Below are positions 1-64,000 of a stretch of 64,000 nt of DNA, in pieces (positions within the stretch are counted from its first letter, which is position 1; each line of letters begins with the position of its first letter). The DNA is from Blastocystis sp. Blastoise (Eukaryota > Sar > Bigyra > Opalinata > Blastocystidae), in the NCBI GenBank assembly GCA_039096225.1, contig JBBPEB010000034.1:124001-188000 (forward strand), in the 5' to 3' direction. The notes below the pieces were generated by a model, which saw only the letters and a program-made list of their open reading frames with translations, was not told the origin of the DNA and made no database searches. Position numbers and translations under genes: made by a program.

Positions 1-1274
1 ACATCATTCGATAACACCATACCATTCGCTAAAGTTAAGTTAATTAACCGCGGGAATCCTTCACGAGTAGCATCATGCTTACATTTTAAAGGACCGCCTC
101 CAATCTTATTATATACACATTGTCCTATATAATAACGTTCGCGTGGAGCGGTGTCAAGTTGACGCATCAAATCCTTCATCTTCAAGCACGTGTCATCATC
201 CGTTAACATATAATAAGGTGTCGTTGCTTTTGCCGTTATAAATAGATCTTCAGCCATTAGTACTTTCATTGTTACATTCTGATAAGAATCTAATATATTA
301 GGAATAATCAAATCATTATACTCAGCTTGTTCTTTTAATAATGCCATTTTCAACTTCTCTGTATCTTTCATAGATAAAGCTACTACAAAATAAAACTTAT
401 AATTTCGATCAGATGTCGTCCATTGTCGCTGAGATGCAAACGTTTCACGAATTGCTTTTCGTACCCAAACTCCTAATGGCGGGCTTTTAACCATACCTAC
501 CATAAAATAAGGATTAAATAAATTTTCAATTTTATCAATATGGGGAAGAGAGAAGAAAGAGAAATGTTTATTACGAGGAAAAGAGTAATAACCAAGGCTA
601 TGACGACAATATTGTTGCTTCGATTGTATACTTACGTTATATGACATATATTCATATCTCTGATCACTCTTATCAGGTAAAGAATCAAAATATTCTTTTG
701 GTTCATCTATATTAATTTCTTCTAAAAAGTGATTATTTGTAGTATTCAACTTATAATACATCAATGAACCAAATGTATAATCTTTATATCGTTCTGGAAT
801 TTGGCTTGAAAGAGTTTCTTTGCTAGATTCGATAGTATCAATGTCTTTAGCAGTATCTTCCTGAATAGAATCATTCTCTTTTTGATCAGGAACAGTGTTT
901 TGATCTGTAATGGATTGAAGAACTTCTTCTTCGTTTTCTTTTTCAATATTATCATTAGTTTTTCCTATTCTCAGAGACTTCAGAGTCGATTTCTTCACAG
1001 CATTATATGCAGACATAACTTTCTTATTCGCAAAATCTAGAGAATAAAGTGGAATAGCTCCTGGCACTATAATATACAGAATAATTATATATACAACTAT
1101 ATCTTATATACTAATGACAGGTATAGAATGGTGAACTGAGTCAACAGTAACATGAAAACGAGTAACCAAGAGAGATTTCGAGATTATTACATGAGTTGTA
1201 TACATAAAAGTGATGACTGTCAATATAAATAAAAACAGAATTGTACTTCTACTTGCCATTATTCCTAGATCCAT
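1..1274 (-). CDS. GT31-type (beta-1,3-galactosyltransferase-like) glycosyltransferase, C-terminus cut by window edge
   Basis: Likely a Golgi type II membrane glycosyltransferase transferring a sugar from a UDP-sugar to a glycan. Exons 1112..1274 and 1..1066 are joined across a 45-nt GTATAT..ATAG intron (phase 1). Residues about 9-30 form a signal anchor (STILFLFILTVITFMY). The luminal part shows the GT31 order: a KSPPLGVWVRKAIRETF block, then NDLIIPNILDSYQNVTMKVL, then the metal-binding DDD in YYMLTDDDTCLK. The frame is open to base 1, so the C-terminus lies outside the window. The start is the first ATG before the hydrophobic segment. A GC-rich word (44..57) lies in the coding sequence. The fold assignment is firm; the exact sugar and linkage cannot be read from sequence. 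Confidence 0.82.
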
Positions 1275-2302
1275 CGAAATATAGAATAAATATTATTATT
1301 GAAAAACTCCATCGAAATTCTTTAAACTAAAGTCTGAAAATTACTGAAAACGCATTAAAAACCATTCATTCCCCTAAATTTTCATTTCATCTTTATTTTT
1401 CTGTATTTTGAGTCACTTCTATGATTATGTATAGGTAAAGTTTATATAAATGATATTTATTAGTAGTGAACGAATTGTTATGTTTGAATTCGTATTCATC
1501 TGGGGAATCGATGAAGTTTTGTATTCAATATAATTTTAATCACATATTAGGAATCATTGACTCTGTTTTTCCTATGCATAGTAGTATTTATTATACTTAT
1601 TTAATAGCCAATAATGATTTTAAAATTAATTATTGCTAATTTTTTTTGACATTTTGTTGTTTATAATCATTGAAATTCATAGTTATTGCTATTATCCTAT
1701 ATTGATGAAAATGAATAATTTGATATACATGTATATAGCTCATGTAGACTAGCTTATTCAAGCAAAATTCAACATAATTTATTTGTACTATTTAGTTAAT
1801 CTATCAAATTATTACATATTGATAATATGTTATTATATCGTTATTCTTATAAGAGTAGATAAAGTTATTATATTTATATTCAAAATAGAAACGAGAAGTT
1901 TAATCAAAAAATGATATATAAGATACGTATATATATCTTTGAAAAATGGATAAAAAAATCTTCTAATATAAGATTAGATTATGATATTTTATAAATAATT
2001 AGTAAACAAACAATATAGTTATAGAAAACATTACTTAAATACATATACAAAAGATATATAGAATAATGAGGAATAAAAAAGAGAAGAAAAAAATCACTTA
2101 AAGAATATCTATACAAAATAATAAAATATTTTTTTTAAATAGGAATAAGAAAATAAAAATGTATTCAAAAACATGAAACGATGTTCATATATAATTATAT
2201 ATAATTATATATAAATAAACGTATACAACTTGATGAAAAGACACAACAAGAAAAGAATAGATATATATATTTAAAAAGAATAATAAATAATTATTAATTT
2301 AT
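1275..2302. other. AT-rich intergenic region
   Basis: About 1 kb between the 5' end of the GT31 gene and the 3' end of the TOM1-like gene. It is very AT-rich with short homopolymers. I see no coding frame with homology, no tRNA and no clear regulatory motif. Confidence 0.6.
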
Positions 2303-4316
2303 TTATAATTCAAATAAATCATCGAAAGCGGATTTTTTAGTTTTATTTACTTTCGTTTTGACAGGTTCAGCCTTGTTGACAGGAGCTGAATTGGTAGGAG
2401 CGGAAGTGAAATCTAAAGTAGATAAATCTGTTTCATCCATAAGGTCCATAGGTTCAGAAGTAGTAGCAGCAGAAGAAGAAGTATTACCAAAGAAATCAAG
2501 ACCTAATAAGTCATCTTCAACCTTCTTAGGCTTCTATAGATATAATGATATTATTATTATTATATATATATATATATAATGATAAATTGATATAGTGATA
2601 TTATTATTATATATATATAGAAAATGATAAATTGATATAATGATATTATTATATATATATAGAAAATGATAAATTGATATAATGATATTATTATTATATA
2701 TATATAGAAAATGATAAATGATACAGTTATATAGATAGATAAACTGATATAGATAAAAATAATAAGATAGATATAAAAAAGAGAGATACTATAAACAATA
2801 TATAATATATATATAAAATTATCTCTATTGAATACAATATGAAATAAAAAATAATAAACATATAAACATAATTAAAAAACGAATCTATTATATATAGATT
2901 AAAATGTATATATACAGTAGTAGTAGGTTTCTTGGAGGGTTTGACTTCAGGTTTAAATTCATCATCATTATTATCATCATCATCATCAAATAAACTGTTA
3001 GCAGCTTTCTTATTCATACGACTGGTAGTATTGGATTTCTTCTTATTGTCGGCTTTACGTGTAGTCCATTCATCATCGTCATCATCCCAAGAAGCGTTCT
3101 TATTGGCTTTTGGTTGGCGGGATTGGCGAACGTCTTCTTCATCATCACTATCAAATAAACTATTATTTGATTTCTTTACAGGTTTCTTTGTAGAAACAGC
3201 TATATCATCATCACTATCAAATAAACTGTCAGCGGCTTTAGAATTCTTAGAAGTGGAAGCTGTTTCATTCTTTAAACGGCGTCCAGTAGAACGAATACTA
3301 GGTCCCTCGTTACTAGAGATAGCGTCATTCTTACGAGAAATAGCCTTCTTAGCAGGCTTTTTCATTGGTTTATCATCATCTGACCAGTCGTCGTCATCTT
3401 TATCGGACCAATCATCGGATACTTTCTTTGTTTTACTATTCTTATAACTCTTATATAAAGAAGTGATTTGTTGAATCATATCATTCAAAGTTAATAAACG
3501 ACTTAAATAATTTTCATTACCGCCAGAAGTAGTTTCTCTTTCAATTAATCGTTGTAAACGTTTTGTATTTCCAATAGTCTCTTCTACAAAGGTCTATATA
3601 GATAGTATATAGATAGTATATATAATAATAATAATAAATATAATAAACATAATAAATATAATATCATATATAATAAAAAAATAATAATAATTATGATTAT
3701 AAACATAATATCTATATACCTTAATCTTTTCATTTTCGAATACATCATTTCCTTCATCCTCCTGCTTGGCTAATACTTTCTTTAATAATCTATAGGTCTC
3801 CTTAGGGTCAAAGGGACTACTAGGTTCAGCATAAGAAGAAGAAGAAGAAGAAGAACCTATTTATATAAAAGTAGAAGAAGATATATATATAAATATACTT
3901 CATTATTATCAATTAATTTAAACAAATAATATAATATTAATAACAATAATATTTTCAATTAAAATAAAATATAATATAATAATAATAACCATTGAAATAG
4001 AACACTACTATACTACTATATTATATATATAAATACTTGATTTATAAGAAGGAGAAGAAGCATAGTTGTTACTATAACTAGATTCGATACGTCTAGGAGG
4101 GTTTACGGGGGGTTCCCACTTCTCTTCCGACGAAGGAGCAGGTGCAAATCGAATGCCATCACGTTGCATATCTTGATATCCTTCAACGATAGTACGACCA
4201 CGACCCGATGACGCATAGGGCATAAAGGCATCCCCCCAACGACGTATCATGGCTTTGCAATCATTGGCTATATGCATATTATCAGCACCACCTGTCTGAC
4301 TACGATCCTATATATA

Positions 4317-4347
<31 letters not shown>

Positions 4348-4987
4348 TATTCTAATATGATTCTTTATAATTTATTATCATTGATATTCATATTAATTTA
4401 TTTCTTATACTTAAAATATTATAATCTTTTTACACATAAAATGATTCAAAAAATATATAAATACAAATAATATATATATATCCATACAACAATCATTTCT
4501 TTGCATCTTCTCATAAATAAAGGAGTACAACTGTTATGAAATTTAGCTCCTGTATTCTTCATAAGAGTATCACAGATTCTAAAAATAAAATATATAGAAT
4601 ATATAAAATAAATTAACTAAAATATTTAAAAAGAAACAAAAAAAAAAGTCTTTTAAAAACCAAGATAATTATCAAATCATACTGCATAGTAGTTCTAACA
4701 CATGAATTAACACTATTACCAATACCTTTAGCTAAGACAAACCATACTTCTTCAAGAATCTCAGGATCATTTGTACTATTGACCATATCAGCAAACTAAT
4801 AAAAGAAAATAGATAGAAACATCAGAGAACACTTAGAAAATACCTTCAAATATTTATCAGAAGAAACAGTTCCATAAGAAGCATTGATAGCATCATTGAT
4901 AGCATTACCAAGTGAAGAAACAGGCTCACGAATGAATGAAGTAATTTTATCAGTTAAACCAGAAAGACCAGAAAATAAAGAAGCCAT
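2303..4987 (-). CDS. VHS-domain endosomal sorting adaptor (TOM1/GGA-like)
   Basis: Probable ubiquitin- or clathrin-binding adaptor on endosomes. Seven exons close in phase: 2303..2533, 2916..3593, 3720..3856, 4037..4307, 4488..4578, 4683..4795 and 4844..4987 (554 aa). Residues about 1-190 match a VHS domain: FADMVNSTNDPEILEEVW, a basic CKEM segment, then MIRRWGDAF and GYQDMQRDGIRF, which align with the TOM1 end of VHS. A helical stretch (EETIGNTKRLQRLIERE to LTLNDMIQQITSLY) sits where a GAT domain would be. The C-terminal half is acidic and disordered, with three SLFDSDDD-type repeats and WDDDDDEW. A DDLLGLDFFG motif resembling a clathrin box or adaptin-ear ligand follows. VHS is firm; GAT is inferred from position. 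Confidence 0.8.
2540..2725. repeat. 42-45 bp tandem repeat inside the last intron of the VHS gene
   Basis: Four imperfect copies of a unit containing GATAAATTGATATAATGATA followed by a TTATTATATATATAGAAAAT-like stretch start near 2581, 2626, 2668 and 2713. It lies in the 382-nt intron 2534..2915, much longer than most introns here. Confidence 0.75.
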
Positions 4988-5814
4988 TTTACTAATTATC
5001 CTTGTATTAATAACAATAATTGTAATATGATCACTTTCTTCAAAAAAAGGAAAAATGATATATATAAATCCATTTCTCAGGAAAAACCACAGTTTCCTCA
5101 GATTTCTTTAGAATATTCACGATTATTATCTTTCGCCTCAATAATACTTTTTTCATGATTTTTTTCTTTTTTTCTTCTTTTTTTCTGGCAACAGGTTTCT
5201 AGAAATTTGTTTTGAATAACATTATTCCTTTCATTTCTTCCATTTCAAACCAAATAACATTTAAATGTCCTTCGATACATTGTATCAAGTTCTCAAGCAT
5301 ATACTACATCTTTTAGAAAGAGTAAATAACATCAATTAAAAATAATTCTAAATTCATCAACATAATCTACTGTTGTTATCTGTTTATTTTATACTATTTT
5401 GTACATACATCATAAATATGCATTACATATTCAATAATTCTTCATAATCTCATTTTTTTACATGTAATTGTATCCATAATTGAGTTAATTCAAATCATAG
5501 CTTTATCAATTTATCTTTTAAAATATTCTATATTCATCTCATGCATTAATACAAATAATTCTATCCTATATAAAACAAAACGCAATAGTATTTAAATTTT
5601 CTTTCAATTAAGAACAGCTAAAAAGTTTCAAAAATAAAAATCCCAAAAAGTATTTAAAAAAAAATAAAATAATTATATGAAACAACAGAGAGAATTATCA
5701 TATTTAAAGTATCTAATAAATAATAAAATAAAAAAAAGAAACTTATAAAAAAGAAATCTTTCTTTAATAAGATAATGTATAAAATGAATTCAGTATATAT
5801 ATAAATAATTTGTT
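4988..5814. other. AT-rich intergenic region
   Basis: Promoter side of the VHS gene and 3' side of the SSS symporter gene. No gene seen. Around 5070-5110 is a C/T-rich stretch with CTCAG words, but no motif that I can name. Confidence 0.6.
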
Positions 5815-7536
5815 TTAATTAGTGGCAGCACTAACAACAGGAGTAGCTTCAGGAGCAGCAACTGGAGCTTCAACAGTAGTTTCTTTCTTTTCTTCAACAG
5901 CAGGACTTTCTTTATTTTCAACGGGAGTTGCTTTAGTAGTAGGAGTTTCAGTAGGAATTTGAGGACGATAGAAACCAATGAAATCGACTTTACATTTCTT
6001 TTGAACAATAAGATAATCAAAGATCCAAGAAACAATGACAATAGAGAGAAGAGAGCAGACCATAGCAAGAGTTCTGAAAGGCATCCAAGAAGGATAAGGA
6101 ATAAAAGCATTAAGACCCATGAAAGCTTCACCACCACCAAGTCTAAGAATAAGAGCAACCCAGAAACCAACGAAAGCACCATAAGTATTACACTTATTAT
6201 AATAAAGAACTAATAATAATTGAGGGAAAAGAATACAATAAATGTAATCTGAAGTCATAACCCAAAGATCATAAACAGATTTAACACTAAGAGCTAAGGC
6301 AACAGCAGCAGCAGCAATAACGAAAACAGCAATTCTAGCAACAATCATAGTTTCTACATCACCAGCTTTCTTATGAATAAGAGGTTTATAGATATTAACA
6401 GAGAAGACAGTAGCAGAAGCAAGCATACTAGAATCAACAGTAGACATAGTAGCAGCAGTTAAACCACCTAAAGCAATATAAGAAACAACTTTAGGGCAAA
6501 GATATTTGATTTCAAATGAAAGAGTATTAGAATAATCAGTTAATTCACCAATAGGAGTTTTAGACCAATCAACAGCAACAGCAATACAACCTAAGATAAC
6601 AGGAGCAATAGAAACAAGAGCAACACCAACAGCAGAAGCATAAGATAAAACCTTAGCATCTTTTACAGTCTTACAAGCTAAAACTCTTTGGAAATATACT
6701 TGCCAAGGAATACCACCAAAGCACATAAGGAAAGCATAGTCTAACCAAATACCCCAATCACCAGGAGCAACACTACCAACCCATTTATAAGCAACATCAC
6801 CAACATTACCAACAGCATCAGAAGACCAAATGAAAGGAATAGCTACCCAAATACAAACAACCATGATAGTTAATTGAATAAGATCGATATAAACAACAGC
6901 ATATAAACCACCAATGAAAGTATAAAGAGCAGCGAAAACAGCAGACACAACTACAGCAATCCAAGTTTCAATATTAAGAAGGAAACCAAGAGCAGAACCT
7001 AAAGTAGCTAAAGTCATACCAAGCCAGAAAAGATCTCCAAGTACAGTAGGAATATATAAGAAAGCAGTCATAATAGGACCATATTTTTCTTGGAAAGGAT
7101 CAAGCATAGTAACATAATTTCTTTCACGCATCTTCTTAACAAAGAGAAGACCACCAAAGAAGAAACAAATAGAATAGCACCAAGTAGCTTGAGTCCAAGC
7201 AAGACCAGAACTAGGATCAGCAATACCTTGAACAGTACCGTACATGTAACCAGCACAAATCCAACAAGCAATCATAGTAACAACACCAACAGCACCAGAA
7301 ATATTACGTCCAGCTAAAACCATTTCTTCAGTAGAACCATCCTTTCTCTTTCTAGCAGCCCAAATGGAAACACCAAGAATAATAATATAGAAAATGATAA
7401 TTGTACCAAGACCCCACCAATCAAGTTCATTAGTAAGAGGAGAAGGAGTAGGAGCAGTAGTAGGAGCAGTAGTTTGACCAAATACTAAAGAGAAAAGGCA
7501 GAATAAAGCCATTAAAGAAGAAGCCTTCATTTTCAA
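5815..7536 (-). CDS. Sodium:solute symporter, high-affinity choline transporter (SLC5A7/CHT) type
   Basis: Predicted plasma-membrane Na+-coupled transporter; 573 aa in a single exon, unlike most neighbours. A cleavable-looking leader (MKMKASSLMALFCLFSLVFG) precedes a short Thr/Pro-rich stretch, then about 12-13 membrane segments. Blocks closely resemble animal CHT1: YVTMLDPFQEKYG, GGIPWQVYFQRVLA, YLCPKVVSYIALGGLTAA with TMSTVDSSMLAS, and GGEAFMGLNAFIPYP. The last 60 residues are a hydrophilic Ala/Glu/Thr tail. Codon use is strongly biased, as in the Hsp70 gene, suggesting high expression. SSS membership is certain; choline as substrate is inferred from similarity and could be a related solute. 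An alternative start is Met3. Confidence 0.88.
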   Translation of the reverse strand: MKMKASSLMALFCLFSLVFGQTTAPTTAPTPSPLTNELDWWGLGTIIIFYIIILGVSIWAARKRKDGSTEEMVLAGRNISGAVGVVTMIACWICAGYMYGTVQGIADPSSGLAWTQATWCYSICFFFGGLLFVKKMRERNYVTMLDPFQEKYGPIMTAFLYIPTVLGDLFWLGMTLATLGSALGFLLNIETWIAVVVSAVFAALYTFIGGLYAVVYIDLIQLTIMVVCIWVAIPFIWSSDAVGNVGDVAYKWVGSVAPGDWGIWLDYAFLMCFGGIPWQVYFQRVLACKTVKDAKVLSYASAVGVALVSIAPVILGCIAVAVDWSKTPIGELTDYSNTLSFEIKYLCPKVVSYIALGGLTAATMSTVDSSMLASATVFSVNIYKPLIHKKAGDVETMIVARIAVFVIAAAAVALALSVKSVYDLWVMTSDYIYCILFPQLLLVLYYNKCNTYGAFVGFWVALILRLGGGEAFMGLNAFIPYPSWMPFRTLAMVCSLLSIVIVSWIFDYLIVQKKCKVDFIGFYRPQIPTETPTTKATPVENKESPAVEEKKETTVEAPVAAPEATPVVSAATN

Positions 7537-8013
7537 TTTCTTTTTAAAAATTCAAAAACAGAAATAAAGGATTCCAATATAATAAAAAATGAATCTATTT
7601 AAAGAAATAAAAAACATAATGCCAAAAAATGATTAGCTTTGATGTCATTGATTTATTGGCTAATTTATTTGATCTAAGTCTGTCAGAACTGGTTCATCCA
7701 CTAATTCACTACCACTTCATTTCATCAATTACAAACAATTCTATAACAATGACGTGGTTTTTTGAAAATCAGCCAATCATTCTCTGCCACATTTATCGAA
7801 TTTTTATTCTTTTTTAAGAAACAGGGGTAAATGAGGAAATGAAGATCTTTTTGAATTCCTTTTGATGGATTCAATGTAATGGATTACATTGTAAAACTTG
7901 TGTCATTGTATTGTATTTTATCGAGAAAAGACTTTTAAATAAACAACAAAGCAATTATGAAGTCAAAATAATACTTTTTATTATTTGATAATTCACTAGT
8001 TTTATAGGATTTA
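7537..8013. other. Intergenic region
   Basis: Between the symporter promoter and the stop of the histone-fold gene. The short open frame at 7629..7817 has no recognisable protein features. Nothing else seen. Confidence 0.6.
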
Positions 8014-8574
8014 TTATATATCAGATCCTTTCAGTAACTCATTATACTCACCCGCAGCTTTAGCAAGCTTTTCTTTCTGAATTTGAATCTGTTCTGGAGT
8101 TAAATCGTGTATTTTTCTTTTCTGGGACTTTTTCACTTTCTAAATATATTAATATGTTTAACTAATTTATATAAATACATTAGAATCATTTTCATTTTCA
8201 GATAACTATAGAAATAGAAACCTATATTGATATAGCATAAAATACATCATCAAGAATAGTTGTAAGTGAACCATAATTGTTTTTATCTAATGCTTGTTTG
8301 ATCTCTTCTAATGATAAACTCTTTTTATTTTGATTGTCACATAAATCTTGTGCGTCTTGACTGATATTCTCAATAAACCGTACTGCAAACAATCTTAACT
8401 ATATATAGAAATATGTATATGCGATTTATTTTATATTATTCAAAATACATATTGAAGGATTTCTTTTGATATCGTTGTTTTTGGAGGTAATACCGATTTA
8501 CAAAGGTTCTTAATGCACGCCAATGATATTTCGTCAGAAACTGACGATGTTGTTGCTTCATTCGTGTCACTCAT
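8014..8574 (-). CDS. Small histone-fold protein (POLE3/CHRAC or Dr1-like)
   Basis: Three exons, 8014..8139, 8246..8398 and 8449..8574, all phase 0, give 134 aa. The middle exon has the histone-fold helix-strand-helix pattern of NF-YB-type subunits: LRLFAVRFIENISQDAQDLC, then KKSLSLEEIKQALDKNNYGS. The first helix comes from exon 1 (ISLACIKNLCKSVLP). The C-terminal exon (KKSQKRKIHDLTPEQIQIQK) is a basic, helical tail reminiscent of Dr1/NC2-beta. Such proteins pair with a second histone-fold partner in DNA polymerase epsilon, chromatin-remodelling or transcription-repressor complexes. I cannot say which one from sequence alone. Confidence 0.62.
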
Positions 8575-8913
8575 TTGTTTTTATTTTATAAAACAAAATA
8601 TAAATGATTTAATGAGAATAGTGTAAGTGCTATGTGCAATAGGAGTATTTTCAAATATATATTAACTATTATTAATATAAAACAAAACACGTGAATAATT
8701 ATTTTTATATTATTGTACAAAATATGTAGTTTGAAAATAGAAAATTTTTGATAAAAAGATGAAAAGTACCTTGAGAAATGGTATATGACAGTATCATTCT
8801 TTAAATGATATAAAAGAATAGATAATAAGAAAAATATTATTTTTTTAATGGAAACGTATATATATATATATATTACTTGATTGAGTTTATATATGTTTCA
8901 CTAGTAAATATAT
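8575..8913. other. Short intergenic region
   Basis: 339 bases between the start of the histone-fold gene and the stop of the Mps1 gene, including a (TA)n run at about 8856-8873. No gene seen. Confidence 0.6.
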
Positions 8914-10992: not shown

Positions 10993-11073
<81 letters not shown>

Positions 11074-14049: not shown

Positions 14050-15125
14050 TTAGTGAATGCCATAATACATACTGTTACTATCATTACTAGTGTCCTAGAG
14101 GAGAAGATAGAATAAGAAATATATAGGATAGTATATAGGGAAATAGAATAAGAAATGAGAAAAATAGTATAGAAGTATAGATATATAGATAGATATATAG
14201 ATATAAAGTATAAGTATATAAATAAGAATAAGAATGATAAGTTTAGAAGATATAAATGATAATAATAAGTATACTATATATATATATATACATATTCATC
14301 ATCTTCATCATCATCCACAGATCCGCTACTTTGAAATGCCATCGACGCGTAACTCTCAATACCTATATATACACAGGAAATAACCACGGAAATATATAAT
14401 TAAGGAAAAGAAATATTATATATATGTATATATATACCGAAATCGAAAATACTTAAATTTTTAGGAGGACTTCCACCTAACTATATATATATATATTTAG
14501 ATATATAATATGTATCTATATTCGATTTATAATGTATATATATATACACTCTTTTCTTCTATAGTAGCATGAGGATCGATATAATTCGAAAGGAATTCAG
14601 TCCATTTCTCTTTTAAAGAGTCTACGATTCCCGCGATTATTCCATGAGGTTCAGTGTCAATAGCTTTCTTTATATACTGTATCATATTAAATATAAACCC
14701 GAACTGATTATATTTTACACTACCATCAGCATTCTTATCATCACGTGCTTGAATACCCATGTCAATCAATTTTCCAATCAGATTATAGCGTTCAAATAGA
14801 TCCCTCACGAGTCCCTCATTTTGAGATTCAATAACAGCCTCGAAATAATTATAAACAATGAGATGGAGTGTGTCATTGTGAGCATAACGGAAAAACATAT
14901 CAAAGACAATATCATTCACGTGATTCTCGATGACGCATGTCATGACGCGCTCTTGTTTGAGGGTCAGGAGAGTTGATAAGAAAGTGATAATACCCGCACG
15001 AAGGATCCCCACACGTTCTACGGATCCCCCACGAGCTAACGGCAACTGGGACGAAAGAGGGAAACTATTTTCATTACTTGGAAGTACCTATATATATATT
15101 GTTATATATATATTTATATAATAGT

Positions 15126-15158
<33 letters not shown>

Positions 15159-17543
15159 TATATATAGATATATTATAGTTATATATAAATAGATATATAC
15201 AGGAGGAAGAGAGAGGTTCATCATAAGTACATTTATATTATCTAAATATACACTTAAAATACTCTGTACCTCGTCATATTCACTATTATTCTTTTGACTA
15301 AGTTGGTCTTTTATATATGTAGAACACAATTTAAGGCACGTGCTTAACTGTTGAGGAGACATGCGAATGCTAATTGTATTTAATTGATCGAAATCAATAC
15401 TATTATCTATATATATGGTATATATGGTATATATATAGGTATATATAGTTATATATACCTTCAGCAATAGTACCAAAACGATCATATATGTCTAATTCCA
15501 TCATATCCTCTATATATATAGATATATATATAACAATAATAACATATTTCTACTAATAATATTATATATATATATATATATATATACCTTGTTTATCTTT
15601 AGATTCAGTAGGAGATAAATGTGTATCAACTTCTAAAATATCCGCGGGAATATTACTGGTCTTTACATCATTAGCATTACTATATATAATATATATATAG
15701 TTATATATATAGTTATATATATATATATATATAGTTATATATACCTATTAGATTGAGCATATAATTGTGAAAGAATCATAATAATCTTTTGAGAAACAGT
15801 TTTATAACCGCGGGGAATAGATTCGTCAGTAATATCTAAATCAATACTTCTATATAATATAATATAATATAATATAATATAATATAATATAATATAATAT
15901 AATATAATATAATATAATATAATATAATATAATATAATATAATATAATATAATATAATATAATATAATATAATATAATATAATATAATATAATATAATAT
16001 AATATAATATAATATAATATAATATAATATAATATAATATAATATAATATTATATTATATTATATTATATTATATTATATTATATTATATTATATTATAT
16101 TATATTATATTATATTATATATATATAAATATATAAATACCTCGTTCTGCATCGAACATCACCATCTATGGGAATGGCATCTATAACGGGCTTCTAAAGA
16201 ATATATATATAAATATACATATATATATATATACAGGTCCTTCTTCTTCTATTTCTTCATCTGTACCTATATATATAATATATATAATATATATAATATA
16301 TATAATATATAACACATATACTAGCAATAAGATTGTTATTGACACAGAGGAATGTGAATGATTCGTACTGGTTAACGGCAGATTTAATGGCTGTGGAGAG
16401 TGTGACGGAGACTGCGTTGTCAGACATATCGAGGAAACGAAGACTGCGAATGGATTCCGAATTATCTTTAAAGGGTAGGTATATAGATTATTAATATATA
16501 TATTATTATTATTCTCCAAAAACATTTTAATTCTTATATACATAATAATAATAATTATTATTATTATTATATATATAAATACTAAAGAAATATAATAATT
16601 TGGTAGCTGCTTCATCGGTAAAGTTATTGGAACGTATATATAAGTTTTCTAATTTATGATATTCGTTAAGAAGATTAATAATAATATCAAATCCATTATC
16701 GCCAATATTATTACTATCTATATATAAGTCTTTTAATCGAATATCCGTAGAATGACAAATAGAAGAACAAATCTCATCAATACCCTCTGAATCTATTCTA
16801 TATATATTATTATTATGTTTATTATATAATATATATAAAGTATTATTTATGAACATATAATATATAAACTATAATTTATGAACATATAATAATAACATAA
16901 TATATATCATCAGTCAAGAAATATCCTTAATAATATATAATAAAATATAATAATAGTTCAAAAATGAAAAATATATATATCTATAATAACTTTTCAAAAT
17001 ATAAAATAAATTACACTATATATTATATACGAGGTACTATTAAGATTAAGAAGTGTAAGACCACTTCCTTGGGATAAAAGTTGAGCTATATGCATAGCAC
17101 CATTTGTACCAATAGAATTCTTACTAGACAGATAAGATAAAAATAGACAAAAAAGATTAAATTCAATATTGATTGTAAATACGCTAAAATCAATGATTTG
17201 ACTGACTTATTATCTTTTAACGTTTGACAAATAAAATTACATCCCTTTTCAGTAATCTATATAAATAGCATATAGCAAATAGAATCAAAACAAAACTTTT
17301 AAAGAAATTCAAACTAGAATATAAAAGAAAATACATTATTTCTCGATAGATCAATGCTTTTCACGTGTGTGGTATTCTTGAAACTATTACAAAATTGACT
17401 AATATCTGTATCGTTCAATTGATATCCATTCAACTGAACTTCTTTGAGTTCAGGATCATCTGACTCCATCTGTTCAAGAATGCTTTTAAAATAATGCTAC
17501 AAGAATTATGTATTTGATATTTTATAATCCTTACCTTATCCAT
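14050..17543 (-). CDS. Leucine-rich-repeat protein fused to a SAPS-like (PP6 regulatory) C-terminal region
   Basis: Sixteen exons close in phase to 636 aa, including a 9-nt first exon (17535..17543). Residues about 10-225 are RNase-inhibitor-type leucine-rich repeats (LTLLNLNSTSIDSEGIDEI, LKDLYIDSNNIGDNGFDII, LENLYIRSNNFTDEAA, LRFLDMSDNAV). After an acidic linker, residues about 340-610 resemble the second half of the SAPS domain of PP6/Sit4-associated subunits: RVGILRAGIITFLSTLL, VNDIVFDMFFRYAHNDTLHL, LKEKWTEFLSNYI, then an acidic DDDEDDEY tail. The usual N-terminal SAPS half was not found. Likely role: scaffold or targeting subunit of a PP6-type phosphatase. Main exons: 14548..15087, 15201..15406, 16322..16465, 16583..16797 and 17335..17496. 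GC-rich words lie in coding sequence at 14627, 15638 and 15804. Confidence 0.72.
15852..16125. repeat. Pentanucleotide microsatellite that switches strand: (AATAT)n then (ATATT)n
   Basis: About 200 bases of AATAT repeats run directly into about 75 bases of the complementary ATATT repeat near 16050, inside one intron (15850..16140) of the LRR-SAPS gene. The two arms can base-pair. Confidence 0.9.
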
Positions 17544-19117
17544 TTGTTTCTTTACTTATATTATAAATAATATATATCTCAGAATAACGATTAATTCGAA
17601 TAATCCAAGATGAAATTCCTAATAAAATTCTTATGTAGTTATGTTTTTATAATTCCCGTGAGAATTTCTTTGAAAATACTTGTTGCCGAAAAGAGATCCC
17701 TACAGTTTTTTTCAAAGGATCACCGAAAAAACACGATTTTCAAAAATATAATCCATTCTCCATTTGCTTGCAGAACTTACTTTAAAAGATGTCAAATGTG
17801 TTGTGCTATATATTAACCCTCTCTAGTCAGTGAGTAGTAATAAGGGACTCTCTTATTTATTTAGAATTTAAGTGATTTATGTTTTTGTCGATTAGGTTTG
17901 TTATTTCAAAGATTATTTTAATAATTTTTCATATTTCTATGATTCTGTCTCTATAATGAGAATCGTATTTATAATAAATTCTTAGTCTTCTCTTGAAATG
18001 AGCACGTTTCATTGTTTTTTTCATAGGAATGTCTTCAATGTGTAGAATATCAAATTATCAGTCCCTTTATTATAATCCTATTATATATATATTACATATT
18101 TGTATAGTATATTGATCATGTTTCTATTATATATTCTTTTCTATTATTTCTGGCAAACAATAATCATAATCATACATATACATATTCATCATTAAGAATA
18201 ATTATTATTTATAATAGCAACATATATTTTATTCAATATATTATATATATTATATAAATACTCTATATATAATCATTCTACTTTAGTATATATACCCATA
18301 TTTTTTATTTTGATATATATATCACTTTATTCATATAAACACCTTGTATATACGTATTTCATTTTTTTTTCAATAAACACTGCATTATCATATATAAAGT
18401 ATATTAAGACATTGATAGATATACACTCTCTACCAAACATAGTATTAAAATGTACTCTCAATATATATACTCTAGTGAGCCACTATACTACTATTCTATA
18501 TAACTAATACCAAGTATCACTCAACACATTTTATTCAATTATATTATCTATAAAAACTATATATATAACTCTTAATACCTCTAATGATTACAACTATAAT
18601 TATACTTATTTTGCTTATTGTATATCTCAAATTTTTTTGAGCATAATATAATTTAATGAATTCATTTATAATAATCCAAACACAATAGTATGTCAAATAT
18701 ATTCAAAGTAATCCAATTATCATGTTTATAAAACCTCTTCTTTTATATAATACAAATGTTACACACAATATAAACCTTTGGTTATGTCAATATACATTAA
18801 ATAAAAATAAGAGTAATCTCCTTGTCATTAAAAAAATTAATAATCATTTATGAAAATTTATAATTATAATTGAGTAAAATAAAAAAATGTAAAAATAAAT
18901 GAATATACTATGATAAATGAAAAAGACTGAGTAATGCCATATAATAATGCTCAAAAAAAGGAAAATAAAAAAAAGTTGTATCATAATGGTAGCCCTAGCA
19001 CTCCAACTGAATAAATGTGAACACAACAATAGATAGAAGAAATTATATTATGCAACAAGTGCAAAATCATCCCATATTGATTGTATTTGTCTTCTTAAAG
19101 AACCAATATAATATCGC
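17544..19117. other. Long AT-rich intergenic region
   Basis: About 1.6 kb between the start of the LRR-SAPS gene and the stop of the S29 gene. The first 250 bases have higher GC and one copy of the GC-rich word (ATTCCCGTGAGAAT, about 17652). The open frames at 17610 and 18310 lack protein-like composition. No tRNA found by eye. Confidence 0.55.
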
Positions 19118-19282: not shown

Positions 19283-21780
<2,498 letters not shown>

Positions 21781-23321: not shown

Positions 23322-24169
23322 ATGAATCCTTTAGCAGCTCTTAACTTCAAGATTGTTGGACGTTGGAATAGAGCTAGAGCTTCAATTATGACTTTACCTC
23401 ATGGACCAGTATTTACTCCAGTTTTTATGCCAGTAGGAACCAAAGGTACAATCAAAGGAGTAACTACAGAACAAATGAAAAATGAACCTATTGATTGTCA
23501 ACTTTTCCTTGGCAATACATATCATTTAAGTGCTCACCCTGGATCTGATGAAGTTGCTTCTTTTGGTGGATTACATAAATATATGGATTGGGATCGTAAT
23601 TTATTAACAGACAGTGGTGGTTTCCAAATGGTCAGTTTATTAGATTTAGCTAATATTACTGGTATATATATATATGAGTTATCATTCACATTTTTTATAA
23701 AAATTATTTTTTGTTTAATGAATAGATTGTTTCGTAGAATTATGTGTGCTTTTATTTTATATAATTATTTGCTTTGTATTTATTAATTTTTATTTATCAT
23801 ATTTATATATTTTATAAGTTTTTATAAATTCTCTTGTAATATAATTTTATTTTATATGATTCTCTCTCTTTGTGATATATATATATTTATATATATATAT
23901 ATATAGAGGAAGGTGTAGAATTTCGTGACCCTGTGGACGGTCATCAATTGCTCCTCACACCTGAAGAAAGCATAAGATGCCAAGTATATATATATATATA
24001 TATATGTAATTCTGAATATTATATATATATATGTAATTCTGAATATAATACATATATATTTATATGTAATTCTGAATATAATATATATATATATATATAG
24101 ATGAATATAGGTGCTGATATTATGATGGCTCTTGATGATGTTGTTCACTCCTGTAGAGCAGATTATGAT

Positions 24170-24252
<83 letters not shown>

Positions 24253-24811
24253 TATAAAGAGGCTACATTTCGAACTGTCCGATGGCTCGATCGATGTTTA
24301 GATACTCATAAGAAAGGTCAACATAACCGCGGGAAATACTGCAATTCATATAATCTCCATCAGAACTCACTTGCTGACCAAGAAACTAATCAATCTGAAG
24401 ATCCAAATATTCACGGGGAATTATCAAAATTGAAGGAAGGTGAAGTAGTTCCCCAGAATTTATTTCCCATTGTTCAGGGATGGTTAGATACCGAAAAAGG
24501 AGGTCTTCGTGATATATGTATTCAAGAGTTTTTAAAGCGTGATGATCAGATTCCCGGGTACGCCATTGGCGGGCTCGCAGGGGGTGAAGATAAAGAGAGT
24601 TTCTGTAGAGTCGTATATATATAATATATATTATATTGCTATAATTATATATATATAACAATATATATAACTATATAACTATATAACTAGGTTGAGTTTT
24701 GTACTGCCCGCCTTCCTGAAGGTAAACCGCGCTACGTCATGGGGGTAGGCTATCCTCTCGATATCCTCGTCTGCAGCGCCTTAGGGGCCGATATGTATGT
24801 GATTACCGCGG

Positions 24812-24851
<40 letters not shown>

Positions 24852-25469
24852 TTTTATTACTTCATAATTCTATATATATATATAGGTACGATTGTGTTTA
24901 TCCTACTAGAACAGGTCGTTTCGGTAATGCCTTCATTCCCGCGGGAATGATGCGTCTGAAGTTGAATATATATAAAGATGACGAGCGTCCTATCGATGAG
25001 AATTGCCAATGTGATACATGCAAGCATTATTCACGAAGTATGTTGAATCACTTGTTGAAGGACGAGGCGTTAGGATCGATCCTCGTGACGCGTCATAATT
25101 TGTACTATATGATACACTTTACAAGAACTATGAGAGTATATATATATATATATATAATGTTTTAATTATTCTCCATATTTCTTCTTTTAGTCTAACCATA
25201 TATAAATATATAATATAAATATATAATATATAATAATATATATAATAATATATATAATATAAATATATAATATATAATAATATATATAATATAAATAGAT
25301 AATATATAATAATATATATAATCTATATATATAGCAAAGTATTATTGACGGAACATTCGATTCTTTCTGTCAGCAATTCATGATCAATTATTTCCCGGAT
25401 TATAACTATCCAGAATGGGCTGAAAAGTACCTGAAAATTGCTGGAATTGAATTAATTCATAAACATTAA
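23322..25469 (+). CDS. QTRT1: Queuine tRNA-ribosyltransferase catalytic subunit (eukaryotic TGT)
   Basis: Exchanges guanine 34 for queuine in GUN-anticodon tRNAs. Seven exons: 23322..23661, 23907..23983, 24101..24171, 24252..24612, 24691..24794, 24886..25135 and 25335..25469 (445 aa). Seen: TDSGGFQM (catalytic Asp), [30 protein letters not shown], the catalytic-nucleophile block [13 protein letters not shown] and the zinc site CQCDTC with a later His ([10 protein letters not shown]). An insertion of about 46 residues (24318..24456) splits the segment between [13 protein letters not shown] and LFPIVQG. The third intron (24172..24251) has no GT donor; it starts ATATAT but joins in phase. A GC-rich word lies just after the donor of intron 5 and another in exon 6. 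Confidence 0.93.
24172..24250. repeat. (TA)n tract filling TGT intron 3
   Basis: About 39 AT dinucleotides make up essentially the whole intron, which is bounded on both sides by the 9-base direct repeat ATAGATATA. Confidence 0.9.
24935..24948. repeat. GC-rich palindromic word, ideal copy ATTCCCGCGGGAAT
   Basis: A perfect 14-base palindrome inside TGT exon 6. It is the ideal form of a word present about 40 times. Other copies with CGCGG cores start near 44, 15638, 15804, 24323, 24801, 27636, 27910, 54546, 54697, 58143, 59218 and 59296. Copies with TG or CA in place of the central CG include 25994, 27238, 27441, 27536, 27822, 28004, 28208, 44485, 45204, 45449, 45636, 47368, 47685, 55220 and 63645. 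Confidence 0.85.
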
Positions 25470-25832
25470 TTTTCTTTATTTGTCTGTATATATTTATATA
25501 ACGTTTTTGACTGTTTTCTCAGAAATTTCTTTTTGGTTTCTTTTCTGTGTTGTTTTATGGAAAAATTATAAACATAAGTAATCTATTCATATAGTAAATA
25601 CAACTAGTTAATGAATTTTGTCTGTTTATATTCATTTATTATCAATATTTGAACATATAATAATATATATTAATATGAATAGAATACTGTTTTTCTCTTT
25701 ATTTTAACAATAATATATACAGTCTTGATTAGTTGCTATTGATATATGAATTATATAAGCAAACATATTAATAGTTTTATTCATAGTATAATAGATATAT
25801 AGTCTATTCATAAAGTTATATATAAGAATAGT
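25470..25832. other. Convergent 3' intergenic region
   Basis: AT-rich spacer between two converging genes; nothing recognised. Confidence 0.6.
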
Positions 25833-29636
<3,804 letters not shown>

Positions 29637-42626: not shown

Positions 42627-42633
42627 TAAATAA

Positions 42634-42673
<40 letters not shown>

Positions 42674-42921: not shown

Positions 42922-42966
<45 letters not shown>

Positions 42967-43151: not shown

Positions 43152-46288
<3,137 letters not shown>

Positions 46289-46888
46289 CTTATATGAATC
46301 TTTATTTTAATAAAAGAAAACCACTAAGGAATCAAGTAATTCTTTTAAAAAACTCAGTTTTACTTTTTTTACAAAAATGAAAATTATATAAATTCTGACT
46401 TTATTTCATTAAAATACCACGGTTATTTCAGAGGACGAAATAACTAACATTGTCTAAAAAATGCATTAGAGTTTTTTAGTAATTTATTTTTTAATTTCTA
46501 TTTTCAAATTTTCAAATATTTTATTATAAATATTAATTGAAATAGATGTGAGTTAATAGGAGAGAATGGATAACAAAATAAAGGAAAAGAAGAACAAGAA
46601 ATTATTGAAACCCATTAAACATATAGTAATAAAAAATGTAAATGATAATATTGGAAAGAATACTCATGATCATGTAAAAAAAAATACATATTAATTTAAT
46701 ATATTCCTTTCCTATCTGATATATATATATATCAGACACAAAAAAAAACAATATAAAAAAGAAGAATAAAAAAAAAAGAATAATGAAACAAAAAAAAAAA
46801 GCAAGAATTTATTTATAAAATAAGTAGAAAGCAAGATTAATAATAACAGAATGGAGAAGAATACAGTAGTTACTCTATGTATATATAA
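46289..46888. other. Intergenic region
   Basis: Upstream of the unknown 712-residue gene, downstream of the PHD-MT-A70 gene. One GC-rich word (ATACCACGGTTATT, about 46415) lies about 130 bases before the upstream gene's start. A-rich near 46740-46800. No gene. Confidence 0.55.
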
Positions 46889-47555
46889 TTATAATTCATT
46901 TCCAACAGTAACCCAGTTATTTCTCAAATTATTTCGACGCCCAAAAATCTCCATAAAATAACCTATATATAATATAATAATAATAAGTTTAATAAATAAT
47001 AATAATAATACTATATATATATATATAGTATTATAATAATATATATATATACCATTTGGAATAACTTGTTCAATAATTTTATAGAGTTCCATTGGTTTTT
47101 GACTCTGTCCTGTTCTCTCTGCCCATATAATGTCACTTAATAAATTCAATTTTGCAGCAGGAACTGAACCCTGTAGAATAAGATATATGTATAATCATAA
47201 ATAAAATAGTAAATATTATAATAAATTCTTCATAATTTTTATACAAATTTTTATACTAAATTTTTATTTATAAATAGAATAAAAAATAGAATAATAAAAT
47301 GTATTATATATAAATATTTATATATACTCTTTTTGCAATAAGACATGTTTCTTTACTATGTTGAAGATAATAACCGTGGGACTTGGCTAGTCTTCTACTT
47401 TTTGTACATTTCACCCAACTAATCTCATCAATATATCTATATATAAAAAGATATTTAATAAATAGTATATTCAAGATATTTAATAATATATACATTATAA
47501 TAACAGCAAATATAAAATATATTAAACATTAATGCTAATGATAAATATAATATAG

Positions 47556-47594
<39 letters not shown>

Positions 47595-47753
47595 TATTCA
47601 AATCCCCATTTATTCATCATATCAAAGGCTTGTCGGTATTTGGCGTTAATTACCCATATAAATAGAAGACCATTGGGAACCAAAATATTCACGGGAATCT
47701 CTTGAATTAAAGAATCATCTAATTGTTGATAAGCAATAGCTACCTATAGTTAT

Positions 47754-47809
<56 letters not shown>

Positions 47810-50322: not shown

Positions 50323-50366
<44 letters not shown>

Positions 50367-53387: not shown

Positions 53388-53467
<80 letters not shown>

Positions 53468-55540
53468 GGATGTAGATAAGTTATATGAGGATATAGAGTC
53501 AACAGAAGAGAGCTATGGAAATAGTTATGTCACTTTTCAACAAACAGCTATTCTACAAGTATATTGTTCTATTATTATAGTTAGTTTTATATTATTATGT
53601 TATTTTGTTTTATTCATATTCTCTTTTTATTATATAGATATATATATGTATATATATATATATAGTTACAAAGTGAATTGAATTCGAGTAAATCGAAAAT
53701 TGCTCAACAGGAGGAACGTATTAAATCTTTAGAAGTATATATATATATATTAACTCTTTTATAATGACTATATATATTATATAATGTATATAATAATATG
53801 TTATTTCAATATAATTATAAAAAAAGCAAAGATTGATTTCATTCTGATTTCTTCATTACACGTGCACTTTTTCTATAGAATGTTCTTACAAACGTCGAAT
53901 TCTTTAAACAAAATGAAACTGTTCAACTGGATGATGTATATATATTATATTTATTTATTTATTTATTTATATATTTTATTATATTTATTTATTTATTTAT
54001 TAGATATATGTACATGTTATTTCTCTCTCTCTATATATATATATATATATAGAGTGTTTATCGTAATTTACATGTTGATTATTTCAAGTTATGTGAGATG
54101 CTTAAAGAGAAATGTTTATATATATCCACATTAGAGAAGAATGTAACTACACTCAAAGTAAACATTATATCTATTCTATTTATTATATGTATTCTATATA
54201 TTATATCTATTTTATTTATTATATTATATATATTATATCTATTATATTATATATATCCATATACAGAATAAATTAGCAGATATAACCGTGAATAAACGTC
54301 AACAAAAAGAAGTTATTCTTTCTCTTCAGCATCAACTCTCTCAGCATACCGCCACTATTGCTCTCATGCCCGCCACACCGAATGGAACACGTATATATAT
54401 ATATATTATTATTATATTTATTCTCTTTATCATCTTCTTCTTATTATATGTATACCTATACTTATTATTACTTACTATTATTATTTAATACTATTCTTTA
54501 TTATTATTATATGCATACATTCTCATCTTCTTTTACATGTTTCTTATTCCCGCGGTTATTTCTAGTTACTACAGAGTTCTCTATGTCACCTGACGTGAAT
54601 AGCGAGATTGTGTCTCTCTCAGAAGCCAATCAAATCGACAGAAATGGAACTTCTACACCTACTACCCCCTCTGTCACTATCCCTGCTACAGAAGACAATA
54701 ACCGCGGTAATTTCGCTGAATATGAACAATTACTTGTATATACTGTTTATTATTATTAATATATATATTATTATTATTATTATTATTATTATATAGGAAG
54801 AAAATAGAAGATTAAAATCTGAAATGAAACAATTAACTAGTGATCATATTAAGGTTAAGAATCAGTATTTAAGTTCAATAAAAGATATAGAAACAACTGA
54901 GAAACAGAATGAAGAATTAGAGAAGGATATCGAAACATATAAAGAGGAAAACAATGAACTGAATAAAGAAATGGATGATTATATGACAGCATTAACAAAT
55001 CATCAACAAACTATTAATGGAATTAGATCCTTGATTCAATCTCCTGATAATAAATTCACTACTAAAAAGAGTGACAAGACACCTCTTTTTATCGATGAAG
55101 ATACGAAGAATCAAATTAATAAGTCTATTGCTACTGCCAATGATATAAATCAATTTTTATATAATAAACTTCAATTCTATAAGGCAAAATATAATAGTAT
55201 ATGTCTTAATAAGCAGGATATTTCCACGGGAATTGAAGAAGATGATATGGAAGATAGACCCCATAATCTTGAATATATGAAATCTGTTCTTCTTAAATAT
55301 TTTTCATTCCCTGAAAAGAGTATTGACAGAACTCGTCTTCTCCCCGTGATTAAAGTACTCTATAATATGAATGATACAGAAATACAAGTATATATATATA
55401 TAATAATAATAGAAATAGTTATTATTATTATGGTTAATTATTATTATTCCGTTTAAATATTTATTCCCGTGATTATTTCTACAGACCCTTAATGGCGGGA
55501 ATCCACTTCCAAAACAATTCAACGTAGCTTTAGCTAGGTA

Positions 55541-55588
<48 letters not shown>

Positions 55589-55672
55589 CAATAATTATTC
55601 TATAGTTTTGATCCAGATACAGCTGTTGATTTTAATCATTTACAAAATATATTTAGAGATAAAGTTCGATAA
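52666..55672 (+). CDS. Golgin with C-terminal GRIP domain (GCC185-like)
   Basis: Coiled-coil tether of the trans-Golgi. Fourteen exons close in phase: 52666..52761, 52815..52928, 53001..53112, 53194..53263, 53304..53337, 53469..53558, 53666..53734, 53879..53935, 54053..54157, 54267..54390, 54566..54735, 54797..55387, 55485..55537 and 55606..55672 (583 aa). Most of the protein is heptad-rich coiled coil (SLEELQVRFKGQQRKREEEL, ENRRLKSEMKQLTSD). Near the end, HNLEYMKSVLLKYF plus RTRLLPVIKVLYNM is a clear GRIP domain, with the Tyr that binds Arl1-type GTPases. A non-coiled Ser/Thr segment (about 54566..54735) interrupts the rod. Two introns carry the GC-rich word just before the acceptor. Confidence 0.87.
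54546..54562 (+). repeat. GC-rich word before a 3' splice site (golgin)
   Basis: ATTCCCGCGGTTATTTC is followed by TAG and exon 54566..54735. Confidence 0.75.
55463..55479 (+). repeat. GC-rich word before a 3' splice site (golgin)
   Basis: ATTCCCGTGATTATTTC is followed by TACAG and exon 55485..55537. Confidence 0.75.
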
Positions 55673-56456
55673 ATATATATATATACTTTATTATTCAATT
55701 TATATATATTTTTTTATATTATTATATTAACCCATATTATATATGTGTTTATTTATTCATTCATTATGTATCTCTGGATATATCTATATTTATTGTTATA
55801 TTAACATTATGAAATTTTTATTTGTTGATAATTAACCATACAAATGTATGTTATTATTGAATAATTTTTTTTTTGTATTTTAATTATCTGAATTCTTATC
55901 CAAGTATTGATTATATTATCCATATAGTTCCAATATTTTAAATTTATCTTTTTTTAAATTTTGTTTTTAACATGATTCCGTTATTCATTTTTGCTCATTG
56001 TTTTGCACCACTCAATTATGACGCTCACTCTCTATTATTGTGACCATAATCCTAACACTTCTTAATCACTTTCATAATTCAATTATTAGTCCTGTTTATT
56101 CCTATGCTTGTCAGATTCTTACATCGATCATTTTTTATTGCTGTGATATACAATCATTAAAATAGCCTTTGCTTATAACATTTTCTAATTCGACAAAAAG
56201 AATCACATTAGAATATAAACTACGTTTTAAAATATGACTACATTGACTGTCTTATATCTTTAGCATATATACTACGTTCAAGAGTCCTAGATATGGTAGA
56301 AACTACTTGATCTAGTTTCTAAAAAAATAATATTTTTCCCATCATTATCCTGATAAATTAACCGAGACACAATAAATAATCCTTAGAAATTATTCTTTTT
56401 ATTTAAAAAAGTTTAAATTTATAATTTGATTATTTTTTTTTTCGTTACAACTAATC
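55673..56456. other. Intergenic region
   Basis: Between golgin and TBCCD1, same strand. AT-rich; no gene. Confidence 0.55.
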
Positions 56457-61288
<4,832 letters not shown>

Positions 61289-62838
61289 ACATGTGATTTT
61301 AAAGAAAAAATTTCTTATATATAATACTTTCTATAGAGAATATTCGAATTTCCACGCAAAATCTGATTTATATATTAATATTATGTGAATGTTTTTTAAT
61401 TTATATTCATATTATTTATATATATCTATCCCAACATGTATTCATTTTCTTATATTACTATTCTTTTTATTGATTTCACTTCTGTATATATATTCATATA
61501 TATATGTATTTTTTGTAATGTTTAGCAACTATTCTGATTGTAGAAACACAAGTCACATAGTATTGCTTTTCTTTAAATATAATTATGTATTTAAATTCTA
61601 CTATTTTATTTCCTATTTTCTTTTTTTCTCTATATAAATTATATACTATTATATTTCTCTGTCTTTTTCTCTCAAGTACTTCTAGTAAGTTTTTATTATA
61701 TATTTTAGTTCTCTCTCTTGTATATTTATGGTTTATGATATATGTTTATATACAATATATATATTTAGTATATATATAATATAATATATAATATATGTAT
61801 TATATATAATATATATATACTTTTCTTTTGGTGTTATTATCCCCCTATCATTCATTTATGGTTTTCTTTTTTATCTTTTTATTTATCTTCTTTTCTTACT
61901 TAGTATTTTGTGTGATTTTTAATATATATATATATATAAATATCAGACGAATTATTCCTTTTTTTTCAATAATATATATATATTCTTTATCATAGAGTTA
62001 TATTCTTTATTTTTGTTCTTGCTATATATATATTTGATCTTCAATTTAATTGAATCAATCTATTTTTTGAATAATTATATATATATATGTATATATTGAA
62101 AAGTATTTCTCAGTTTTATTTTCTAATTTATTCTCAAATCTATTCAATCAATATTTATTTGTTTTTTATATAGCTTTATATAAATATTGGATTCTTAGTA
62201 TATATATTATTTTATATTAGGTTTTTATTTATTTTTATTTCGTTTTCTTTATGATATCATGTATTTTTTTTTTTTTTTTAATATTATAATTCTTTTTTGT
62301 TACTTATTCCTAACGTATTTTTTATTGTAATTTTTTTAAATTATTTTTTACAATAATATCATGCGTTGTACGCTTTGCTACTAATTCTAATTGTCATATT
62401 TCTTCATGATAATACAATAGTTTTCTTTTATGATTTAAATAATTGTTTTGTTTTCTTCCTATCAATGTTTGGAACTCGTTGTTGAAAGTTTTCATCAAAA
62501 TACGAAATACAAAAACATCGACTCTCGTCAATTCATGAGATAGTTTCATATTTTTATAAAGACATTACTTCTTAATGTATCATATTGACAACTAAATCAA
62601 TATAGTATGCTAGAAATCCGACAGTGAAGAATAATTAAGAATTTATCAAAATCCCAATAAAAAAGACTTCTCTTCATTTCATTTAAATCCCTTTGATGTG
62701 ATGTAATGTATCGAATCACCATGATTCCTCGTTACTTATCATTTAGTATTACTGAAATACATAAATTCTTTTTGTTGAAAGTGTTAATTCATCTGTCAAC
62801 TTGATATTTTTACTATTGATTACTATCATTAATCTTTT
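61289..62838. other. Long AT-rich intergenic region
   Basis: About 1.55 kb of T-rich sequence with (TA)n runs; the short open frames at 61389 and 61585 are low-complexity and unsupported. No gene or tRNA seen. Confidence 0.55.
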
Positions 62839-64000
62839 ATGAGTGAAGACATTAATAGAAATTCATTACAAGAAGTTAAATCAATAAATGAAGAACTTAT
62901 TCCTCAAAACAAAGAAAAAAATGGTCTTTCACTTGCTTCTTTAAATTCAGCTAAGAAGAAGGCTGTTGATTTTCTTGTGTCTAAATTTAAATCGAATGAG
63001 AATCAAAATCATGATAAAAACAAGGCTATATCAACAAATGATCTTGCTATTCATCCATCACTTCTTAGTAATTATCATCCACTACGATATAGTGATGGTG
63101 GTATATCATCATATTATAATCCATTATTAACTATATTTGATCGTGAAAAACAATCTGAGTGTCTCTCCACTGACGACACTCAGTCCATTCCTTCTCCTTG
63201 TACTAATCAACTAAAAAGTATTTATATGTATTATATGGTATTATATGTATAATATATTATTAATTTATTTTCATAGGATCTTTCTCTTCTTCTTCTTCTT
63301 CTTCATCTTCTTCTTCATCTTCATCTTCATCTTCATCATCTTTTTCATCTTCTTCTTCTTCATCTTCATCATCTTCATCTCCTTCTTCTCTACTGGAGTC
63401 AGAAAATAGTAATCATTATTTTTATTCTATCATTTTCTCTCTTCTATATATACATATATATAGATGACATAACTGATATTACTACAAAAGGAACTATGAA
63501 TACTCAAAATACTACATCAAACACACTTACTAAAACTATTAATATTCCTTCCTCCGTCGATGCTATTACTTCAACATTGAACACAATTAATTCAAATAAA
63601 TTACCACAAAATATTCATATTTATACTCAACAGAATATATATAATCACGGGAATCTATATACCACCACTATACAGCCTTCAGATTCCCGTGGGAAGGGCT
63701 CATTCCTAACTCCAGAGAAAAGTACAGATTCCCCAACAGAAAAATCAGATATCTATAATTCTATCGTTAATAAAGACAAAATAATCGCGGGAGATATTGA
63801 TGATATTGAGAAAGGAGTTAAAGAGATAGATATAAATACAAAAATGGAGCCCAAGTCATTATGTGAAAAGTTTTTTAATTATTTAAGTGACCAAAAGAAG
63901 TTATTTATAATTGTTCCTTTCATTTTATTACTTCTTATTCAGGTATATATCAATTATTATGATTTATAATTCTTTATGATTATTATTATTTTCCATACTA
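62839..64000 (+). CDS. Ser-rich protein with a membrane segment, runs to or past the right edge
   Basis: Not recognised. Exons 62839..63217, 63277..63408 and 63464..63942 close in phase (about 330 aa). Exon 2 encodes almost only serine (TCT/TCA repeats, 63285..63390). Exon 3 is Thr/Asn-rich and ends with a basic stretch (CEKFFNYLSDQKK) before a hydrophobic helix LFIIVPFILLLLIQ. A GTATAT donor at 63943 follows, so the gene probably continues outside the window; reading through would stop at 63969. GC-rich words are present at about 63645, 63686 and 63783. It looks like a single-pass or tail-anchored membrane protein. Confidence 0.6.

Follow-up and report, generated by a model that had tools for sequence, protein, structure and literature searches.

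The window analysed here, i.e., the whole 64,000-nucleotide stretch at positions 124001-188000 of contig C26 of Blastocystis sp. Blastoise (Stramenopiles, Opalinata; genome of 33,333,487 bases in 34 contigs), has a guanine + cytosine (GC) content of 24.9%. It carries a tRNA-guanine transglycosylase (TGT) gene, next to it a mitochondrial-type Hsp70 gene whose 516-amino-acid main exon is 100% identical to WA158_006592, and an MT-A70-like gene; Rfam and tRNA searches of the window gave no match. The subject of this report is a short palindromic word that recurs throughout the stretch, and whose four ideal forms are 14-mers built from the halves CGGGAAT and CGGTTAT.

A repeated palindromic word with two half-sites

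A preliminary description of the window put the number of copies at about 40. Allowing up to three mismatches to any of the four ideal forms we count 44, and 41 sites reach 13.5 bits of a position matrix. The form ATTCCCGCGGGAAT alone is found at 24 places with at most three mismatches, where 100 dinucleotide-preserving shuffles give an expectation of 0.35. For the whole genome the reversed pattern served as control: ATTCCCGCGGGAAT with up to two mismatches gives 1435 sites against 3, exact ATWMCCGCGGKWAT gives 299 against 0, exact ATTCCCGTGATTAT gives 193 + 153 against 0, and the loose pattern WTWMYCRYGRKWAW gives 3006 against 288. Thirty of the exact ATTCCCGTGATTAT sites are units of one minisatellite, and others lie within repeated element ends. 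In a 304-kb sample (the window plus loci L007-L030) the matrix finds 74 sites at 14 bits or more, compared with 5.2 in five Markov-3 simulations, while at 9 bits 75 of 165 matches are expected by chance. Because the matrix was trained on this same sample, the pattern counts with their controls are the cleaner evidence. The preliminary description had proposed a genome-wide count, and had allowed that the copies might match a Markov expectation or be confined to this contig; they are found well beyond it, far above the reversed controls and, in the sample, also above the Markov-3 null. We confirm that the repeated palindromic word in the window is real.

Each site consists of two abutting 7-bp halves in dyad symmetry about an R|Y centre (ATWMYCR.YGRKWAT), and the half-sites are mostly YGR(GA/TT)AT. 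Of 49 rows with ATTCCCG, 39 continue with YGR, a single palindrome being counted on both strands; position +1 accepts C or T, whereas G is almost invariable at position +2. In the first 65 sites of the loose-pattern listing (130 halves) the half cores are mainly GGAA (50), ATTA (39) and GTTA (22). Exact CGCG-centred sites comprise 55 GA/GA, 149 GA/TT and 38 TT/TT pairs, where free combination of the halves would give 69/120/52 (χ2 = 13.65, p = 2e-4). The halves are thus interchangeable, with a modest preference for unlike pairs, as a heterodimer or an asymmetric dimer might show. The central CG described earlier needs amending, since the dyad centre is G|C and the ideal form has two CpGs (CGCG).

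Distribution of sites along chromosomes and in coding sequence

The 44 sites are distributed very unevenly over the window. Most fall in three stretches, with 12 at 24-28.5 kb, 8 at 43-48 kb and 14 at 54-64 kb, and the others are spread over 1-14 kb (2 sites), 14-24 kb (5), 28.5-43 kb (2) and 48-54 kb (1), which bears out the clusters and gaps first reported. At 13.5 bits, C26 has 58 sites in 104 kb (0.56/kb) and C4 has 8 in 100 kb (0.08/kb), with 6 in 50 kb on C8 and 8 in 50 kb on C16. For the 245 exact sites of the four forms listed for contigs C1-C22, 35 of 227 gaps are at most 3 kb (8.9 expected) and 56 are at most 10 kb (28.4 expected), though three or more of the shortest (114 bp; once on C15, twice on C17) resemble copies of one repeat, which inflates the short-gap figure. 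These pairs (C15:53855/53969, C17:160102/160216 and C17:657348/657462) probably belong to a further repeat. In 18 kb from six loci around exact sites there were 7 additional ones. Gaps between sites were also listed for regular spacing, and we claim no period. The flanks of 60 sites (44 in the window, 11 in L027 and 5 in L030) share no common repeat; what they have in common is limited to the overlap of neighbouring sites and to short matches in simple repeats. This comparison rules out a dispersed-repeat origin of the window sites, and the 60 neighbourhoods likewise lack the common flanking element sequence expected of a transposon terminal-repeat motif.

Sites also occur at the two chromosome ends examined. 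The start of C4 has 1 kb of TAACCC repeats followed by units of ∼88 bp with ATAATCA(C/T)GGGAAT, and the end of C3 is alike. In 12 subtelomeric units the motif columns are less variable than the others (mean entropy 0.30 vs 0.73, p = 0.002), only the right half being informative as the units were picked by the left one. In two units GATTAT, i.e., the other allowed half, replaces GGGAAT, and a third reads GATTTT. A 40-bp minisatellite with 89 units of three types is found at one place (C5:400466-404025, locus L032). The motif is retained in 30 units, and the only two variable columns, the last unit excepted, both lie within it.

Two exact and several weaker sites are contained in a 631-bp sequence with 40 scored copies, 98-100% identical. 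The copies allow 18 facing pairs, with a separation of 24.1-24.8 kb in 11 cases and of 27-48 kb in the remaining ones, as for a large mobile element with inverted ends. The element loci are on C3, C14-C19, C23, C24, C28, C29 and C31 (genome G000), from 6515 of L023 to L026, and in L033-L036. One open stretch inside the element has a match to the phage DNA primase family phrog_1156 (E = 2.4e-9), and nine others gave no convincing match; the element looks virus-like or Maverick-like.

In the 304-kb sample, where coding segments were predicted by a hexamer model, 37 of the 80 sites of at least 13.5 bits lie inside predicted coding sequence, 1 partly so and 42 outside, for a predicted coding fraction of 0.35. 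Specifically, the C26 zone has 21 coding sites of at least 17 bits in 36.5 kb, as against 0.60 after synonymous-codon shuffling (standard deviation 0.75, maximum 3 in 100), and 15 such sites in 67.5 kb of noncoding DNA; outside C26 the sample has 3 coding sites against 0.08. The shuffles rule out a protein-level or codon cause. All three reading frames are used, as had been claimed, though unevenly: codon phases 1/0/2 of the 37 coding sites number 24/10/3. In TGT, two exonic sites fall in a 43-column insertion that is lacking in the other proteins aligned, nine out of 120 listed. At 24935 the perfect copy involves no insertion and falls where the nearest relative reads VPWG. Sites thus arise within conserved sequence as well as in tolerant inserts.

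Regional GC is ruled out as a cause, as site-rich 2-kb bins do not have raised GC (Spearman -0.17; 0.232 vs 0.242 with the sites masked). The observed/expected ratio of CpG is 0.89 in 19 bins with at least two sites and 0.66 in 108 bins without sites, a rise not seen in coding segments alone (p = 0.43). The supposed avoidance of highly expressed genes is no more than a trend when expression is judged by codon usage (p = 0.086).

A putative two-half-site recognition system and its rivals

We infer from sequence that the word is bound by protein, and consider it rather probable that it is the recognition site of a putative sequence-specific nuclear protein with two half-sites, for which it probably serves as the docking site. 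Such a protein would bind as a homo- or heterodimer with one 7-bp half for each subunit to read, and would probably be a chromatin or general regulatory factor, or else an architectural or silencing one, whose sites form homotypic clusters. The dyad symmetry, the interchangeable halves, the homotypic clusters and the indifference to coding status all fit a two-half-site binding protein with a chromatin-scale role. Because the density of sites in predicted coding DNA is no lower than outside it, and because they mark chromosome ends, they suggest action on chromatin rather than only at promoters, and a role confined to promoters is unlikely. Silencing, architecture, replication and pairing are candidate roles that the protein may have. 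The earlier idea of a highly iterated palindrome that is a putative protein-binding site is supported, but not the part of it that concerned methylation and deamination.

Several observations weigh against this reading. The motif is broken in 59 of the 89 minisatellite units, which speaks against a need for every copy there; the near-identity of the element ends makes their shared sites uninformative on constraint; and with such uneven density the window is not typical. In a bolder version, which we regard as rather doubtful, the word would be a DNA-level address code, i.e., some thousands of two-half-site palindromes clustered in exons, introns, subtelomeres and element ends for a single dimeric chromatin protein to read (or kept by drive), with coding sequence bent to fit. 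If a protein does read the word, a little-known lineage of this common gut protist would have a binding system on the scale of the genome, discovered from DNA letters alone.

The preliminary description likened the word to HIP1. HIP1 and the alternate HIPs of cyanobacteria are, like the word, short palindromes far above expectation genome-wide, coding sequence included (Elhai, 2015; PMC4390886). Here the likeness of pattern holds (a short palindrome, in any frame, genome-wide). As for the link to a cognate C5-methyltransferase, a six-frame PF00145 search found no enzyme other than a DNMT2-like one. The word differs from the HIPs in being eukaryotic, in its degenerate two-half-site consensus and in its clustering. 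It is also much rarer than the approximately one site per 1000 nt discussed for HIPs (PMC4390886). A sequence match is provided by EBF/COE, a dimer of which binds ATTCCCNNGGGAAT, a 14-bp homotypic palindrome with a 2-bp centre, and the GA/GA form of the word is identical to this consensus (PMC4512700). The match is limited to the homotypic form (55 exact GC-centred and 133 AC/GT-centred sites), and the word differs from the EBF site in that its centre is restricted to RY. A genome search for COE1_DBD gave 0 matches at E 0.1, but control genomes gave none either, so absence cannot be shown. The TTAT and ATTAT halves are not known to be EBF-like, and of the sites of E2F, CSL, Zn2Cys6 and Myb none seems able to match every type of half.

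Reb1-type general regulatory factors also have sites outside subtelomeres, and we know of no report of Reb1 sites as palindromes or as dense in exons. Yeast Reb1 is an example of one factor with sites in subtelomeric elements (PMC9531808). In Plasmodium, another AT-rich protist, PfSIP2/SPE2 is a bipartite motif of subtelomeric repeats, with 94% of 777 sites clustered in subtelomeric domains (PMC2829057). Like SPE2 the word occurs in subtelomeric repeats, and unlike SPE2 it is spread along chromosomes and in exons; rather than being concentrated at the two ends examined, its sites extend along the contigs. The HIM-8/ZIM motifs of Caenorhabditis elegans are short, have dedicated proteins and a chromosome-level function, and lie in pairing-centre regions (PMC10291267), whereas the word has several clusters on one contig, e.g., on C5, C16 and others. 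The statement that no eukaryotic case had been described agrees with the open-access papers searched, in which no such motif was found for a eukaryote among the matches listed for Blastocystis palindromes, motif spellings and iterated palindromes. Over-represented palindromic motifs in protists returned nothing there, and iterated palindromes together with eukaryotes returned cyanobacterial cases, as far as titles and abstract openings show.

The main rival to protein recognition is drive without function, where a motif-dependent process, for instance biased gene conversion, recombination or repair, would spread and maintain the word, with the clusters as hot zones. We think this unlikely, although coding and noncoding DNA are both affected, a perfect copy arose at a conserved protein position and the sites are clustered. 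DNA-uptake sequences are a precedent for such drive. It has also been argued that the HIP excess can be a by-product of repair (Elhai, 2015; PMC4390886). However, the unraised GC of site-rich bins argues against a broad GC-biased process, and two clean half-sites that come in alternative types look more like recognition. If drive is the cause, the word would correspond in a eukaryote to HIP or uptake sequences, and either way, by binding or by drive, a DNA-level pressure acts on coding sequence in Blastocystis sp. Blastoise. The proposal that the word belongs to the large element, as transposase or element-factor sites of which the genomic copies are traces or targets, appears less likely still. 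The two exact and further weak copies in the element ends would be accounted for, but the window sites lack a common flanking sequence, the word is also present in conserved exons and subtelomeric repeats, and the sampled interior of one element holds only 4 sites at 13.5 bits.

A methylation target, whose sites a DNA methyltransferase creates or maintains as has been suggested for HIP1, seems very improbable. A short palindrome in any frame would be consistent with it, and the MT-A70-like exon of the window means that other methyltransferase classes are possible. Variants with TG or CA at the centre do exist, and the preliminary description took them for deamination products of methylated CpG. 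Such decay should make two products equally common, but the genome has 64 + 69 = 133 sites of ATTCCCACGGGAAT and 2 + 3 = 5 of ATTCCTGCGGGAAT, which rules it out. Further support comes from the sole PF00145 match genome-wide, which is closest to human DNMT2 (1g55, E = 3e-36), in a search of six frames that ignored introns and could miss a gene of short exons. DNMT2 acts on tRNA. An RNA hairpin or splice element seems unlikely, given that the palindrome lacks a loop and that there are sites in subtelomeric repeats as well as beyond predicted exons. Chance, composition or codon usage can account for some of the weak matrix matches and for nothing of the whole; with 0-3 sites for the reversed controls in the exact and two-mismatch searches, together with the Markov-3 null and the synonymous shuffles, we regard it as refuted, with a negligible probability.

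Features of the window

Table 1. Sites, site clusters and the TGT gene, in window coordinates.
Feature	Coordinates	Strand	Description	Basis
Only perfect copy, ATTCCCGCGGGAAT	24935..24948		TGT exon 6, IPAG at conserved P-x-G	exact match, exon and alignment
ATAACCGCGGGAAA	24323..24336		TGT exon 4 (NRGK), within Blastoise-only insertion	four-form count, exons, alignment
ATATTCACGGGGAA, weaker site, 13.2 bits	24407..24420		NIHGE, same TGT insertion as the site at 24323	
ATTACCGCGGGAAT	24802..24815		just inside 5' end of the TGT intron after those sites	
TGT gene WA158_006593	23322..25469	+	hosts four sites	99% match
Dense cluster 1	24323..28222		12 of 44 sites; includes ATTCCCGCGGTTAT at 27637; further sites at 27239, 27441, 27537, 27823, 27910, 28005, 28209	
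Smaller cluster	14380..17665		sites at 14380, 14627, 15638, 15804, 17652	
Dense cluster 2	43278..47698		8 of 44 sites; 47370 and 47685 in or beside MT-A70-like gene exons	
Dense cluster 3	54546..63794		14 of 44 sites; ideal forms at 54546, 58144, 59219	

The MT-A70-like exon at 47594-47743 is a borderline match (23.8 bits, for a cut-off of 23.9) and holds one motif site. The window also contains ACCTACTAAT 39 times, in every case on the + strand, and its k-mer lists have long (TA)n and (TAA)n runs beside it.

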